This document shows positions 3,367-9,312 of a stretch of DNA of 19,205 nt, piece by piece. The DNA comes from Methanocorpusculum sp. GTDB taxonomy: Archaea > Halobacteriota > Methanomicrobia > Methanomicrobiales > Methanocorpusculaceae. The stretch lies in NCBI GenBank assembly GCA_017555685.1, contig JAFZFW010000120.1, forward strand, positions 1 to 19,205, in the 5' to 3' direction. A model generated the notes under the pieces. It was not told the origin of the DNA. It worked only from the letters and a program-made list of their open reading frames with translations, and ran no database searches. How positions within the stretch are numbered: position 1 is the first letter of the stretch; every line of letters starts with the position of its first letter. The position numbers were made by a program, and so were the translations under genes.

Positions 3367-5565
3367 TTACTCGAGGTAGTCCTTCGGGGTTGGAATCTCT
3401 TCCTTGAGACCCTTTCTCTTACGGATACCCTTAACGATTTCCGGAAGCATACCCTGCGGGACCATTGCGAATCCTGCGAAGGACTGGGACCACATTGCAC
3501 GACCCTCAGTTGCAGAGCGGAGGTCGCCTGCGAAACCGAAGAGTTCTGCGACTGGTGCCTGACCGTTGACAACAATCTGGTCACCCTCAACATCAGTGGT
3601 GGAGAGCATACCGCGTCTTCCCTGAATCTGAGAGATTGCTGCACCCATCTGATCCTGCGGGACAGTGATCTGGATGTTCTGCATCGGCTCTAAGAGAGTG
3701 TCGCCTGCCATAAGGAGAGCTGCCTTCATACCGCCACGAACTGCCGGAATGACCTGTCCCGGACCACGGTGGATTGCATCTTCGTGGAGCTTGACATCGT
3801 GGAGCTTGATTAAGACATTCTGAACCTGCTCGTCTGCAAGCGGTCCGCCGTCGAGTGCCTCGTGGATACCATCGATGATAAGTTCCATGGTTTCGTTGAG
3901 GTACTGGATACCCTTGGTACAGTCGACGAACATGTTGGAGCCGTAGATGTCCTTAACGGACTTTGCCTCTTCCTTGTCCATACCGAGTGCAACAAGTGCA
4001 TCACGGCGTGCGATGTTGTCCATGTTCATGGTAACTTCGTTGGACTGGATTGCCTCAAGGATGTTCTCCGGCATCGGCTCAACAGAGAGGAAGAATCTGT
4101 TGTGTCTGTTCGGGGACTTTCCTTCTACAGTGCCGTTGAGTGCCTGGGAGACAGTCTCACGGTAAACAACGATTGGCGGGGAAGTGATGATGTCGACACC
4201 TTTGTCTCTCTTGATACGTCCGGTAACGACTTCAAGGTGAAGTTCACCCATACCTGCAATGAGGTGTTCTCCAGTCTCTTCGTTGATGTTGACACGGATA
4301 GTCGGGTCTTCCTTACCAACCTGGTGGAGAACTTCGATGAGTTTTGGAAGGTCCTTGGTGTTCTTTGCTTCGACTGCGACGGTCATGACCGGCTCAGAGT
4401 AGTGCTGGAGGGACTCGAACGGAGTCATTTCCTTTAAGGAAGTGACGGTAGAACCGACGATTGCGTCACCGAGACCGGTAACTGCTGCGATGTTACCTGC
4501 AACAATCTTGTCGACATCGACACGGGTCGGACCCATGAAGATACCAACCTGCTGGAGTCTGTTCGGCTTGCCTGCAGTTCCGGAAACGAAGAGTTCCTGA
4601 CCGCGGGTAAGAGTTCCAGAGAACAGTCTTCCGGTTGCGACTTCTCCTGCGTGCTTGTCGAAGGAGATATCAGTAATCATGAGTGCAACAGGTCCGTTCG
4701 GGTCACATGCGTACATTGCCTTACCGACGGTAGACTCAACATCGCCGTGCCAGATGATGTGGCATCTGTTACCCTGTGCCTGGAGCGGGTTCGGGAGGAA
4801 CTCGACGACCATGTCAAGGAGAACTGCGTGGAGCGGGGATGCCTTTGCAAGGTACTTTGCATCTCCCTCGTTACACTTGTCGATGATAGTCTGGAGAGTG
4901 ACACCGGACTTCTTCATGTACGGAATCGAGATTGCCCAGTTGTAGAGTGCAGATCCGAATGCGACGTTGCCCTTTAATGCATCGAGCTTCCATCCACCGT
5001 TGTTGTAGAGCTCCTCGTTCATTCCCTTGATGAGCTTGTTAACCTTGTCAATGACCTTTCCTAAGCGGATCATCATGTCCTGCGGGTTAACTTTCAGCTC
5101 ATTGATGAGTCTGTCAACCTTGTTGATGAACAGTACCGGGTGGACACCCTCTTTGAGTGCCTGACGGAGAACGGTTTCAGTCTGCGGCATCGGGCCTTCG
5201 ACTGCATCGACGACGACGACTGCACCATCGACTGCTCTCATTGCACGAGTAACATCTCCACCAAAGTCAACGTGACCCGGGGTGTCAATCATGTTAATGA
5301 GGTATTCCTGACCGTTGACTTCGTGGACCATTGAAACGTTGGAAGAGTCAATAGTAATTCCACGTGCCTGTTCTTCTTCGTCAGAGTCAGTCCAGCATGC
5401 CTTTCCTGCAAGCTCTTCGGAGAGCATTCCTGCTCCGGAGAGAAGGTTGTCAGAAAGGGTAGTCTTTCCGTGGTCAATGTGTGCTACGATACCGATGTTT
5501 CTAATGTGCTGAGTATCGTTCATCAGCACATTAATACGCTCGACCATTTTCTTTCCGCGTGACAT
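3367..5565 (-). CDS. fusA: Translation elongation factor 2 (aEF-2)
   Basis: EF-2 is the GTPase that drives ribosomal translocation. The 732-residue length is normal for archaeal EF-2. The G motifs are AHIDHGKT (28-35), RGIT (68-71), DTPGH (94-98) and NKVD (148-151). His599 in [12 protein letters not shown] matches the diphthamide histidine of eukaryotic EF-2, and the archaeal C-terminus KDYLE is intact. The start at 5565 has AGGTGA at 5572-5577. It is the last gene of rps12-rps7-fusA, 37 nt behind rps7. The usual following genes, tuf and rps10, are absent; a terminator and a membrane protein gene follow. The modifying enzyme Dph6 is encoded at 16463-17119. Confidence 0.98.
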
Positions 5566-5602
5566 TTTCTTTCACCTGAAAAATAAATTGTATGGGGGGT
5601 GA

Positions 5603-6187
5603 TTAGCGTGCAGACTTTGCCATACGCTCGACTTCGTCTTTCTTTCCAACAGAGAAGCACTTGGTATCTCCCTTTGCTGCCATGATTAACTCATTTGCAA
5701 GGACAAGGTATGCCGGCTTCTTTGTCTTGTGGGATCCCTTCCAGGTTGCAAGGGCAATGTATCTGAGTGCAGTGTTGACACGGCGGATTGGTGCAGAGTC
5801 AACGGACTTCGGAACATTGATACCACCGTACTTTAAGCGGACAATTTCCTCACGCGGTGCTGCGTTGGAGATTGCATCAACTAAGACCTGAAGCGGGTTC
5901 TGCTTGGTCTTCTTGTTGATCTCGTCGAATGCATCCATGACCATCTTGGTACAGTGCATCTTCTTACCGGTGTTGGTTTCGGTCTGCATTAAGCGGTTGA
6001 TAAGTCTCTCGACGATTGCCATCTGGGACTTGGTGAACTGCTGCTGGGTCAGTCTTCCACAGGTGCTTGGAACCTCGGTAGAGCTGACGGTGATGTAGCG
6101 GATGAGACCCTGATCTTTAACAACGACTTCGGAAGTGTCCCACTTGCCGAAGAGGAGAATCTTGGAGGTTGCGTTTTCTTCAGTCAT
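5603..6187 (-). CDS. rps7: 30S ribosomal protein uS7, archaeal type
   Basis: uS7 binds the 3' major domain of 16S rRNA and lines the exit site of the small subunit. The 194-residue product has the archaeal and eukaryotic style N-terminal extension (KILLFGKWD), then the uS7 core with RLTQQQFTKSQMAIVERLINRLM and a C-terminal region containing NELIMAAKGD and ending in FSVGKKDEVERMAKSAR. The ATG at 6187 starts 5 nt after the rps12 stop, with AAGGT upstream inside the end of rps12, so the two are translated in tandem. This is the conserved archaeal order. Confidence 0.97.
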   Translation of the reverse strand: MTEENATSKILLFGKWDTSEVVVKDQGLIRYITVSSTEVPSTCGRLTQQQFTKSQMAIVERLINRLMQTETNTGKKMHCTKMVMDAFDEINKKTKQNPLQVLVDAISNAAPREEIVRLKYGGINVPKSVDSAPIRRVNTALRYIALATWKGSHKTKKPAYLVLANELIMAAKGDTKCFSVGKKDEVERMAKSAR

Positions 6188-6192
6188 TTTAT

Positions 6193-6621
6193 TTACCTTC
6201 TTGCCTTCTCCTGACGTCCGAGAACAAGTTCATGTAAGGTGACACCGTTTACTGCGATGACAACGAAACGAACTCCCGGGATATCTCCCATGGAACGTCC
6301 TGCACGACCACCGATACCACAGATGGTAACTTCGTCGTGTTCATCAATGAAGTTGATTGCACCGTCGCCGACTGCGAATGCAGTAACCTGACGACCGTTC
6401 TTGATAAGCTGAACTCTGACGCACTTTCTGATTGCGGAGTTCGGCTGCTTTGCTTCAACACCGACCTTTTCGAGGACGATTGCACGTCCGAGCGGTGCAC
6501 CCTCTAACGGGTCTGCTTTCAGTTTCAGTTTAAGTGCCCTGCGGGAGTAAACTGAGTCGCTCCACCGGAATTTCTTGGCGTTGCGAACTAATTGTCTTGC
6601 TGCGAATTTTCCCTGTCCCAT
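6193..6621 (-). CDS. rps12: 30S ribosomal protein uS12, archaeal type
   Basis: uS12 sits at the decoding centre. The 142-residue product is the usual archaeal length and carries the signature [16 protein letters not shown] (about 78-93) and [15 protein letters not shown] near residue 110, where the Asp of the GDIPGVRF segment is the position modified in some relatives. The start at 6621 has AGAGGA at 6628-6633. It is the first gene of the operon here: nusA and rpl30e, which usually precede it in archaea, are not upstream, where fbp-type genes and their terminator are found instead. Confidence 0.97.
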
Positions 6622-6924: not shown

Positions 6925-7584
6925 TCAGAGTTCTGATGCCCGGTATCTGCAGGCATCAAAAAGAGGCGTGTCAAAAAGATCAAGCGGACCGGTAAGGATT
7001 CCATTACCCAGAGAGAATCCGAGTGCAACAACCGGAGTGACTTTTGTTCTGACGATTGCCGAGTCACAGAGGCTGACCGGAGAGAGTCCGCGGGCACTGA
7101 CAGAAGCATCCGCAAAGGTTTCCAGAAGTTCAGCAGTGGAAGAGAACTCACCTTCTGTTCTGCAGAGCATCACTGCAGGAACTGCTGCAGCCTGGTTTTC
7201 TCCTGCCGGAAGCAGACCATTCCAGATTGTTCCATCTGCAGAACCTGCAAGGAAGAGAACAAATGCCTCACTTTCGCGTTCTTCGAAGGTGAGGGTAAGT
7301 GATGAAGCAGGAGCAGGATTTTTGAAGAGCTTTCTTTCTGCAGAAATCTTTTCCCCGACTGCATATGCTTCAGCACGTACCGCTTCAGCTTCTGCAGTCC
7401 GCTCTGCATCACACACCATGAGGGAGACAACGCGGTCCCCCATGTGTGTTACCACAAAGTCATGCAGAACACCGCCCTTTGCTTTCCGGAAAACCTTGTC
7501 TACTGCCTGTAAGACATCCGGAAAGACACGGGTGCATCCGGCAATTCCGCCAAGAGGCTGAGAGTAAACCGTGACTGTATACAT
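6925..7584 (-). CDS. Shortened, catalytically degenerate paralogue of archaeal FBP aldolase/phosphatase
   Basis: The 219-residue product aligns by eye with the two ends of the archaeal bifunctional fructose-1,6-bisphosphate aldolase/phosphatase (about 360-400 residues). The N-terminal part (VTHMGD 45-50, TFEERESEAFVLF 99-111) matches VTHxGDD and EERxSEPxxxF; the C-terminal part (VVALGFSLGNGILTGPLDLFD, about 185-205) matches the LGFxLxNGxLxGPxDLFD block. Between them about 130-150 residues are missing, including the YVGKDD segment that holds the Schiff-base lysine. Metal ligands are also changed: the first Asp is Pro10, the next His is Cys17, and the second Asp of GDD is Arg51. It cannot be a normal enzyme. 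Its ATG overlaps the fbp stop (TAATG), so it is coupled to class I FBPase and may be a regulatory partner; that role is inferred. The frame is intact, so I do not call it a pseudogene. Confidence 0.75.
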   Translation of the reverse strand: MYTVTVYSQPLGGIAGCTRVFPDVLQAVDKVFRKAKGGVLHDFVVTHMGDRVVSLMVCDAERTAEAEAVRAEAYAVGEKISAERKLFKNPAPASSLTLTFEERESEAFVLFLAGSADGTIWNGLLPAGENQAAAVPAVMLCRTEGEFSSTAELLETFADASVSARGLSPVSLCDSAIVRTKVTPVVALGFSLGNGILTGPLDLFDTPLFDACRYRASEL

Positions 7585-8468
7585 TACTCGGTTGCTTCAA
7601 TCTTGGCAATCATGCCGTGGCTTCCGACATAGACAACGGTTCTCTGGTGAACCTCTTCCGGAACGATGTCAAGAGTAGTCTTGGTTCCATTAGATACAGC
7701 CCCTCCTGCCTGTACTGCGAGATAGCCGATCGGGTTTACCTCGAAGACTAAGCGGAGCTTTCCATTCGGCTGCTTCTCGCTTGGCGGGTATGCGTAGACG
7801 CCGCCGTACTGAAGAATCTGGTGGAAGTCTGCAACAAAGGATCCGGAGTAACGGTTCTTTGCCCCTTCATTTTCGATGCGGTTGACGAACTTTGCGTGTT
7901 TTCCGAGCCACTCGGTTCTGACTCCTCCGCTTCCGTAGAGGTTGCCTTCCGGAATCTTGACATGATCTTTGAGCATCTGGTAGACACCGTCTTTATCCTG
8001 TGCAAAGATGGCAACGCCTTTTCCGACAGAGACAGTCATGGTAGTCATCGGACCGTAGAGGATGTAGAATGCAGCCTTGAGATCCTTTCCTGCCTGCATA
8101 CAGCTTCCCTCATAGATTCCGACAATAGTTCCCACGCAGAGGTTGACTTTGATTAAGGAAGATCCGTCAAGCGGGTCCATAACAACAGAGTATTTTGCAG
8201 ACTCGGAGAGTTTGACAATGTCATCACGCTCTTCGGATGCCACTTCACGAACGAGCCCGCTTGCAGCGAGTACATTAGTAATGTGAGTGTCAGACCAGGT
8301 ATCCATCTCCGCCTGGGTTTCGCCGGAGGAGTTGGTCGAGTCAGCATAGTTCTGGTTGGAGATGAATGCATCACGAATCGGTGCTGCCTGTGCACCAATC
8401 AGAGAGATGATTGCAGAAAGGTCATCGTCGACCCCGCAGTTTTTGAGATATTCAGGCAGTGTGGTCAT
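7584..8468 (-). CDS. fbp: Class I fructose-1,6-bisphosphatase
   Basis: This enzyme removes the 1-phosphate of fructose 1,6-bisphosphate in gluconeogenesis, which autotrophic methanogens need for sugar synthesis. The 294-residue product has the metal-binding DPLDGSS (98-104), the upstream SEE (78-80), NSSGETQ, and the C-terminal block SGSFVADFHQIL...GGVYAYPP...GKLRLVFEVNP...AGG, with the HQR near the end, all typical of class I. The start at 8468 lacks a Shine-Dalgarno; a TATA-like ATTATTAG about 27 bp upstream would fit a leaderless transcript. The stop shares one base with the ATG of the degenerate aldolase/phosphatase paralogue. Archaea usually use the bifunctional type, so a class I enzyme may be a bacterial acquisition. 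Confidence 0.93.
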   Translation of the reverse strand: MTTLPEYLKNCGVDDDLSAIISLIGAQAAPIRDAFISNQNYADSTNSSGETQAEMDTWSDTHITNVLAASGLVREVASEERDDIVKLSESAKYSVVMDPLDGSSLIKVNLCVGTIVGIYEGSCMQAGKDLKAAFYILYGPMTTMTVSVGKGVAIFAQDKDGVYQMLKDHVKIPEGNLYGSGGVRTEWLGKHAKFVNRIENEGAKNRYSGSFVADFHQILQYGGVYAYPPSEKQPNGKLRLVFEVNPIGYLAVQAGGAVSNGTKTTLDIVPEEVHQRTVVYVGSHGMIAKIEATE

Positions 8469-8661: not shown

Positions 8662-8744
8662 TGCGAGGGAAGGGATTCGAACCCTTGAACTCCTAGAGAC
8701 TGCGCCCTAAACGCAGCGCCGTTGACCGACTTGGCAACCCTCGC
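8662..8744 (-). tRNA. tRNA-Leu (anticodon TAG)
   Basis: The minus strand folds as a class II tRNA. The acceptor stem is GCGAGGG with CCCTCGC and discriminator A at 8662. The D arm has GCC/GGC, the anticodon stem CTGCG/CGCAG carries loop TTTAGGG with anticodon TAG, the long variable arm is CTC-TAG-GAG, and the T arm is AAGGG-TTCGAAT-CCCTT. The discriminator A and long variable arm are as expected for archaeal tRNA-Leu. The 3' CCA is not encoded. No intron is present. Confidence 0.96.
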
Positions 8745-8888
8745 CTGATTGTCTAAATATATTGGCGGGAAACCACTAAATACTCTTCTATAAGGAAAAG
8801 ACAGGTGGAAAATTTTTCAGAACAGAAAAGAATGGAAGAACCATCGGTGAAAAAGTCTATCTTCCTTTACAGAGAATAGAATAATACT

Positions 8889-9041
8889 ATGGTTGTAGAA
8901 CATACCTGCGGATTCAAACGGGACATTTACTGTCGGGAATGCGGTACAGAACTGATTCAGAACTCGCGCGGAGAGCTTCTCTGTCCGAAATGCGGAAGAA
9001 GACCGGCAATCCTCTGCCCGCACTGCGGAAAGCTCTGGTAA
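8889..9041 (+). CDS. Small zinc-ribbon protein, 50 residues
   Basis: The plus strand encodes a complete 50-residue protein starting at ATG 8889. It carries Cys7, CREC (15-18), CPKC (32-35) and CPHC (43-46), the spacing of a rubredoxin-like double zinc ribbon. Such short proteins are common in archaea and usually have unknown roles in nucleic acid or protein binding. No clear Shine-Dalgarno is visible, so a leaderless transcript is likely. Its stop is one base from the stop of the convergent zinc-ribbon gene at 9043. The dense cysteine pairs make a chance ORF unlikely. Confidence 0.75.
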   Translation: MVVEHTCGFKRDIYCRECGTELIQNSRGELLCPKCGRRPAILCPHCGKLW

Positions 9042-9042
9042 T

Positions 9043-9312
9043 CTACGCAGAAGAAAGCCACTCTGCATACTTTTTCCGGACGAGTGCTACCTCTTCCGGA
9101 TGTAAATCAACACGGCCGGTATGCTGAAGATACCGGTGAACAGCAGAGATCAGTTCCTCTGCTTCGGAAAAATCATTCACTTCCAGATATACCGGAACCT
9201 CTGAAAGGGAAATCACCTCTCCGCAGACCGGACAGAGTTTCCACTTTCCATATTTATCCGTATACGTGAACTCACGGCAGTTCGGACAGCGTACGACCCA
9301 GTAACTGCTCAT
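9043..9312 (-). CDS. Zinc-ribbon protein, DUF1922-like
   Basis: The 89-residue product has an N-terminal zinc ribbon, CPNC at 9-12 and CPVC at 27-30, followed by a helical part, VNDFSEAEELISAVHRYLQ, ending near LVRKKYAEWL. The layout (ribbon, then a DFEEA-like helix) resembles the archaeal DUF1922 family as I recall it; its function is unknown. The start at 9312 has GAAGAG directly adjacent, too close for a normal Shine-Dalgarno, while a TATA-like TTATTTAC at about 9340 would place the transcript start next to the ATG. It converges on the 50-residue zinc-ribbon gene with a one-base gap. Confidence 0.7.
   Translation of the reverse strand: MSSYWVVRCPNCREFTYTDKYGKWKLCPVCGEVISLSEVPVYLEVNDFSEAEELISAVHRYLQHTGRVDLHPEEVALVRKKYAEWLSSA

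Follow-up and report, generated by a model that had tools for sequence, protein, structure and literature searches.

The window analyzed here is a stretch of 19,205 nucleotides from Methanocorpusculum sp. (contig JAFZFW010000120.1), and our subject is a pair of adjacent genes on its minus strand. The upstream gene, fbp (7584..8468), encodes a class I fructose-1,6-bisphosphatase (FBPase) of 294 amino acids. The downstream gene (6925..7584), called the partner gene below, encodes a protein of 219 amino acids that is a degenerate homolog of the archaeal bifunctional fructose 1,6-bisphosphate (FBP) aldolase/phosphatase (FBPA/P; Pfam family FBPase_3, PF01950). The fbp stop and the partner start share one base in the sequence TAATG (7582..7586; gap between coding sequences, -1), a junction already noted in a preliminary description of this DNA, which had proposed that the partner is a pseudoenzyme kept as a partner, sensor or regulator of the FBPase.

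The product of the upstream gene matched the Pfam domains PF18913 (E = 2.1e-36) and PF00316 (E = 1.5e-30). Its best NCBIfam subfamily was NF006786 (E = 4.9e-77), with a score of 258.9 bits that is below the cut-off of 428. The best match was to 2gq1, which we take to be the Escherichia coli FBPase; this alignment begins at residue 42, and those to the animal and plant enzymes begin at residues 14-17. ASEE-like, DPLDGSS and E-NP motifs of class I were present in the alignment to 2gq1. By its PF00316/PF18913 domains and these catalytic motifs, the protein is assigned to the class I FBPases.

The partner matched PF01950 with E = 8.3e-20 (71.7 bits; cut-off 25) and NF041126 with E = 3.5e-20, although its 72.7 bits are far from the equivalog cut-off of 520 of the latter model. 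Against the sequences of the ST0318 and Tneu crystal structures, E values ranged from 5.5e-13 to 3e-8. Judged by these sequence matches, homology to FBPA/P is far beyond chance, and the family relationship proposed in the preliminary description thus stood up to a profile search. We compared the partner with an intact relative of 365 amino acids, G045, whose numbering is used as reference, at 16 positions that comprise metal and phosphate ligands and active-site residues of FBPA/P; we take their roles to be those given in the 2011 structure papers. Only two of the 16 positions were retained. Pro10 (codon 7555..7557), Cys17 (7534..7536) and Arg51 (7432..7434) replace Asp12, His19 and Asp53, the last being the second residue of an Asp-Asp pair, and Asp50 (Asp52 in G045) is retained. 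An alanine is aligned with the Schiff-base lysine of the YVGKDD segment. The three replacements are the ones named in the preliminary description. Against G045, 142 residues are missing in total. They are not missing as a single central block, however: there are five gaps (95-108, 144-207, 215-229, 263-270 and the tail, 325-365). Nor does the protein match the family up to its C-terminal end: the true C-terminus is lost, and what matches there is the core's C-terminal part. Structure prediction for the partner gave a confident fold with a double ferredoxin-like core. The partner is, with high confidence, a dead enzyme.

Conservation was analyzed in 50 degenerate proteins, taking as reference the residues invariant in 13 intact proteins. 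This set omits the proteins of genus g16 and that of G189, which retain more residues. Seven intact-invariant residues were retained in 0-2% of the 50: His19 in one protein, and Asp53, Tyr90, Gln94, Lys132, Lys230 and Gln240 in none. Lys230, the Schiff-base lysine, is retained in the three g16 proteins, which are outside the set. Other old ligands persist by lineage (Asp52 in most proteins of family f1, Asp12 in most of g14), and the old catalytic positions are filled by differing residues in different lineages. In 96-100% of the same 50 proteins, Gly14, Gly39, Asp44, Pro273, Val274, Phe295, Leu302, Gly304, Pro305, Asp307 and Asp310 were retained. Near-invariant columns form the best-conserved stretch of the partner, PVSLCD ... 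LGFS..G.L.GP.DLFD.P (residues 169-207; 6964..7080). Within it, Cys173 is present in 50/50 degenerate proteins versus 69% of the 13 intact ones, and Ser171 is present in 86% of the degenerate proteins, where 13/13 intact proteins have glycine. From the alignment, both may be features fixed after catalysis was lost.

The loss of catalytic positions in the degenerate proteins disfavors ligand sensing at the old site, so that a sensor role, one of those first suggested, appears unlikely in the sense of FBP binding there. A remodeled site that still serves another phosphatase or aldolase activity would be compatible with the well-folded predicted core, with Asp50 in most Methanocorpusculum forms and with the invariant Cys173. 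We consider it very unlikely, since none of the 50 proteins retains the Schiff-base lysine or any of five further catalytic residues, the 12 listed shorter forms lack the loops that make up the pocket, and the old catalytic positions differ by lineage.

No further PF01950 gene was detected in the window's genome (69% complete). Twelve of the 25 genus genomes compared are at least 90% complete; in each of the 25, the matches listed fall at a single place, this gene, and no full-length FBPA/P was found elsewhere. All 25 carry the pair with an open partner frame, and a frameshift or sequencing error in one metagenome-assembled genome was therefore rejected. Broken frames, which the preliminary description had named as evidence that would count against it, were not seen among these 25 genomes.

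Across 232 genomes of the order, 173 had a PF01950-type match (G212 only at E = 6e-4) and 137 had a class I FBPase. We aligned 102 PF01950 proteins from 102 of the 173 genomes; the intact sample was hand-picked across genera and is not random, and the alignment omits G169, which is interrupted close to the end of its contig, as well as the partial row G215b. Proteins from genomes in which no class I FBPase was detected keep all 16 positions in 25 of 25 cases. Where an FBPase of the type found in the window (type A) is directly upstream (52 rows), 51 proteins keep 1-10 positions and G214 alone keeps 16. G094 and G215, which keep three and four, were counted as type A, with contig ends hiding or cutting fbp; with them, 53 degenerate partners lie directly behind a type A fbp. 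The partner start overlaps or nearly touches the fbp stop in 50 of 52 cases. The same pair was thus recovered in related genomes and is kept together across families. One degenerate fragment, in G016, is cut by its contig start.

A second type of locus (type B) has the order fbp, a class II aldolase-like gene (PF01116) and a PF01950 gene, the last at a distance of about 1.2 kb, or 1.8 kb in G181. Among 23 such rows, 16 keep 16/16, four keep 15, and one each keeps 14, 13 and 9; the row with 13 (G190) has two unresolved letters among the positions, and G172 is cut before the last of them. In the loci compared, the type B FBPase is 41-43% identical to the window FBPase, and the old bifunctional gene behind these modules (L112:1713-2871, L113, L114, L144, L146, L150) is mostly intact. 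The one clearly degenerate FBPA/P among the 23, G189 (L114:1245-2288, minus strand), keeps 9/16 positions and has lost the lysine; it perhaps records a recent onset of the same degeneration process. Degenerate proteins were found only together with fbp, and G189 is the sole case not directly behind type A. We also fetched 20 loci with an FBPase but no PF01950 match (type A: ten from family f5, four from g36, one each from g26 and g31; type B: four from g34), and none contained an open frame with the motif GP.D..D. A 21st locus of this kind, in G212, runs into a contig end.

The type A partners differ in length: 367 amino acids in g16, 355 in G217, 298-315 in g2, g35 and the trimmed forms of g38, 258-274 in g14, and 277-285 or 214-223 in Methanocorpusculum. 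The g16 proteins have lost Asp12, His19, Tyr90, Gln94 and Tyr346 but keep the lysine, and the near full-length G217 protein keeps only 3/16 positions. The 12 listed proteins shorter than 320 amino acids all lack stretches around 95-108 and 221-229 and the tail from 317-342 onward. In the ten of them that are not from g2, 256-270 is also partly or wholly missing, and 144-207 is missing only in four short Methanocorpusculum forms. These forms are a range of states in separate lineages, not a single line of descent. The single genus g38 (loci L117, L118, L119, L136 and L137), whose FBPases form one clade, contains partners that are intact, dead at full length, or trimmed: G214 is intact behind a 127-nt spacer, G217 is dead behind 98 nt, and G213, G216 and G218 are trimmed, with overlapping starts. 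A partner tree, which omits G172 and G190 in addition to the rows missing from the alignment, implied a minimum of three transitions between the intact and the degenerate state; we quote only this lower bound because long branches meet and the tree method was a quick one.

The ratio of nonsynonymous to synonymous substitution rates (dN/dS) was estimated pairwise by YN00, with medians taken over pairs with dS within 0-3. For the partners of the window clade, the median was 0.113 (range 0.06-0.31; 14 of 15 pairs usable). It was 0.044 for fbp (11 usable pairs; the frames run from stop to stop and include a few codons before the start) and 0.034 for the intact FBPA/P of g10 (eight usable pairs). 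In the other partner clades that yielded such pairs, medians were 0.14-0.18; a three-genome clade contributed one pair, and g38 none. By segment, the NG86 ratio in the window clade was 0.098 for the first 60 codons, 0.12-0.19 for the middle and 0.054, as a median, for the last 53 (codons 167-219). Every aligned type A partner has an open frame. In a simulation of substitutions only, free of selection, 11 of 2000 frames stayed open with 0.25 changes per site, one with 0.5 and none with 1.0. The window protein is almost certainly under purifying selection. The ten partner pairs of g38, unlike the other clades, gave NG86 ratios of about 0.3-0.75, which suggests relaxed constraint or decay; the partners of this genus may be decaying. 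Within the window clade, the close pair G032-G034 had a ratio of 0.31.

A functionless remnant in decay would fit the shortening in several lineages, the absence of the gene from sister lineages and the weak constraint in g38. For the window clade we rejected this pseudogene reading on dN/dS and open frames, a rejection that does not extend to g38. With 25/25 genus frames open, medians of 0.11-0.18 in the window and other usable clades, a conserved start overlap and a confident fold, it is hardly tenable for these clades. Catalytic loss and purifying selection coincide in the window clade, and constraint in g38 is weak. The first description's "pseudoenzyme kept" thus has good support: catalytic residues are lost, frames are open, median dN/dS in the window clade is 0.11 and the pair is kept across families.

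For the aldolase reaction, two PF01791 genes were detected in the window's genome: one for a 2-amino-3,7-dideoxyheptulosonate synthase, and one for a protein of 301 amino acids that scores above cut-off with NF005321, a model of DhnA-type aldolases, and is, by family membership only, a possible FBP aldolase. NF005321 was above cut-off in 129/232 genomes. Outside g24, g30 and g34 there are 93 genomes with fbp; by a hand count, in which fbp type was sequence-checked only at the loci fetched, 87 of these have NF005321 above cut-off, three have partial matches and three lack it. The fbp genomes of those three genera had a class II aldolase instead in 42 of 44 cases, and there it goes with the type B fbp. 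A class II aldolase was rejected as the replacement in Methanocorpusculum, there being no f1 genome among the 44 with a PF01116 match. The NF005321 gene is just upstream of fbp in most Methanofollis-type genomes (f4; 10 of 11 loci, the exception being G085, where more than 1 kb separates the two), at the g35 locus and at 7/7 g38 loci. The resulting order, aldolase-fbp-partner, in f4, g35 and g38 would suit a partner that scaffolds a gluconeogenic complex and links the DhnA-type aldolase to the class I FBPase, as the two activities were linked in the old bifunctional enzyme. This seems improbable, because the aldolase gene is not beside fbp in Methanocorpusculum or in Methanocalculus-type genomes.

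In the window clade, the pair is just upstream of rpsL-rpsG-EF-2 (3367-6621, minus strand) on the same strand, and gluconeogenesis and translation genes may be co-transcribed there. Throughout Methanocorpusculum the pair is constant and its downstream neighbors vary (rpsL in 7/25; two other neighborhoods in 6 and 5). Upstream of fbp are a tRNA-Leu gene (8662-8744, minus strand), a short open frame (about 8819-9086) with relatives upstream of fbp in eight genomes of the genus, and a gene for a small zinc-ribbon-like protein (9043-9312, minus strand) with a DUF1922 match below cut-off.

We propose the following account, which we hold to be slightly more likely than not. An archaeal bifunctional FBPA/P would have been the ancestor, and its descendant would have lost both activities. 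The unrelated class I FBPase next door would have taken over the phosphatase reaction, and an unrelated class I DhnA-type aldolase, assigned by family only, probably the aldolase reaction. Active-site loops and most catalytic residues were shed, and the predicted double ferredoxin-like core was retained under purifying selection. The partner would now fold during its synthesis beside the nascent FBPase, bind it, and act as a non-catalytic subunit that tunes how the enzyme assembles, its stability or its activity, with the conserved C-terminal block (residues 169-207) as the candidate contact face. Beyond the computed properties of the protein (homology, catalytic loss, predicted fold, selection, coupling to fbp and occurrence only with fbp), its being a partner of the FBPase has roughly even or slightly favorable chances, given the adjacency, the translational coupling and the one-way dependence on this type of FBPase. 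We favor a co-translational subunit because of the occurrence only with fbp, the overlapping or nearly touching starts and the stability of the pair despite changing neighbors.

The retained fold might have a job apart from the FBPase, acting on another metabolite, an RNA or a protein, with its place in the operon reflecting co-regulation with gluconeogenesis. The selection on the core despite loss of the old site, and the many genomes in which the same FBPase has no partner, agree with this. One would expect a protein independent of the FBPase to have left this position in some lineages, however; all 53 degenerate type A partners are directly behind fbp, and the pair stayed together in Methanocorpusculum when its downstream neighbors changed; a separate job is therefore rather unlikely.

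Several observations weigh against an FBPase subunit derived from a displaced enzyme, in addition to the g38 ratios and the G032-G034 pair. The same FBPase occurs with no detected PF01950 match in the f5 genera except g16 and in g36, g26 and g31; since many type A genomes are of this kind, the partner is not indispensable to the type A FBPase. G189 degenerated beside the other fbp type, with a class II aldolase gene between. Among the best 120 of 1448 matches to a fused query, no fbp-partner fusion was found: all were of fbp length (at most 312 amino acids) and covered at most 58% of the query. A fusion as a Rosetta stone was set aside within these 120 matches, and one may still rank lower. 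Among Methanoculleus-type genomes (f3 g10) with an intact FBPA/P, most also carry NF005321, so the aldolase either arrived earlier or has other uses as well. Finally, the adjacency may be a relic of the site at which fbp was inserted.

The window protein shares homology and fold with FBPA/P (PF01950; ST0318, 1umg/3r1m; Tneu, 3t2b-g), an enzyme that assembles as an octamer and has been proposed as an ancestral gluconeogenic enzyme. Unlike it, the protein has no Schiff-base lysine and no C-terminal tail, and it has lost 14/16 active-site residues along with the loops of the active site. The class I FBPase (PF00316/PF18913) encoded next to it acts on the substrate of the partner's ancestor and belongs to an unrelated family, of which the partner is not a paralog. 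Regulatory pseudoenzymes offer a likeness, the window partner being inactive, selected and encoded together with an active enzyme that catalyzes the same step. Known regulatory pseudoenzymes are mostly paralogs of the enzymes they regulate, whereas the partner descends from a displaced, non-homologous predecessor. Our literature search, which included PMC3146512 and covered subscription journals thinly, retrieved no description of a degenerate FBPA/P or an fbp-partner pair, and this leaves absence unproven. Some relatives (P0021, P0028, P0034 and P0044) bear the public names fructose 1,6-bisphosphatase or FBP aldolase/phosphatase; names were shown for a minority of 60 relatives. Pathway reconstructions of these methanogens may, because of such names, count a non-enzyme as an enzyme.

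We suggest, tentatively and with slightly less than even confidence, that, more than once in Methanomicrobiales, an enzyme that had been displaced was taken up by its unrelated displacer as a regulatory or assembly subunit, with intermediates alive even within one genus; after non-homologous replacement, the predecessor would have been domesticated as a pseudoenzyme. This one archaeal order shows a possible route by which two separate enzymes came to do the work of a bifunctional one. Its living intermediates are those in which the old protein is intact and alone, intact beside the newcomer, full-length and dead, trimmed, gutted to about 219 amino acids, or gone. If the partner binds the FBPase, it would be a clear-cut example of an enzyme that, once replaced, lives on as a subunit of the newcomer, and would give a testable answer to why displaced genes sometimes persist.
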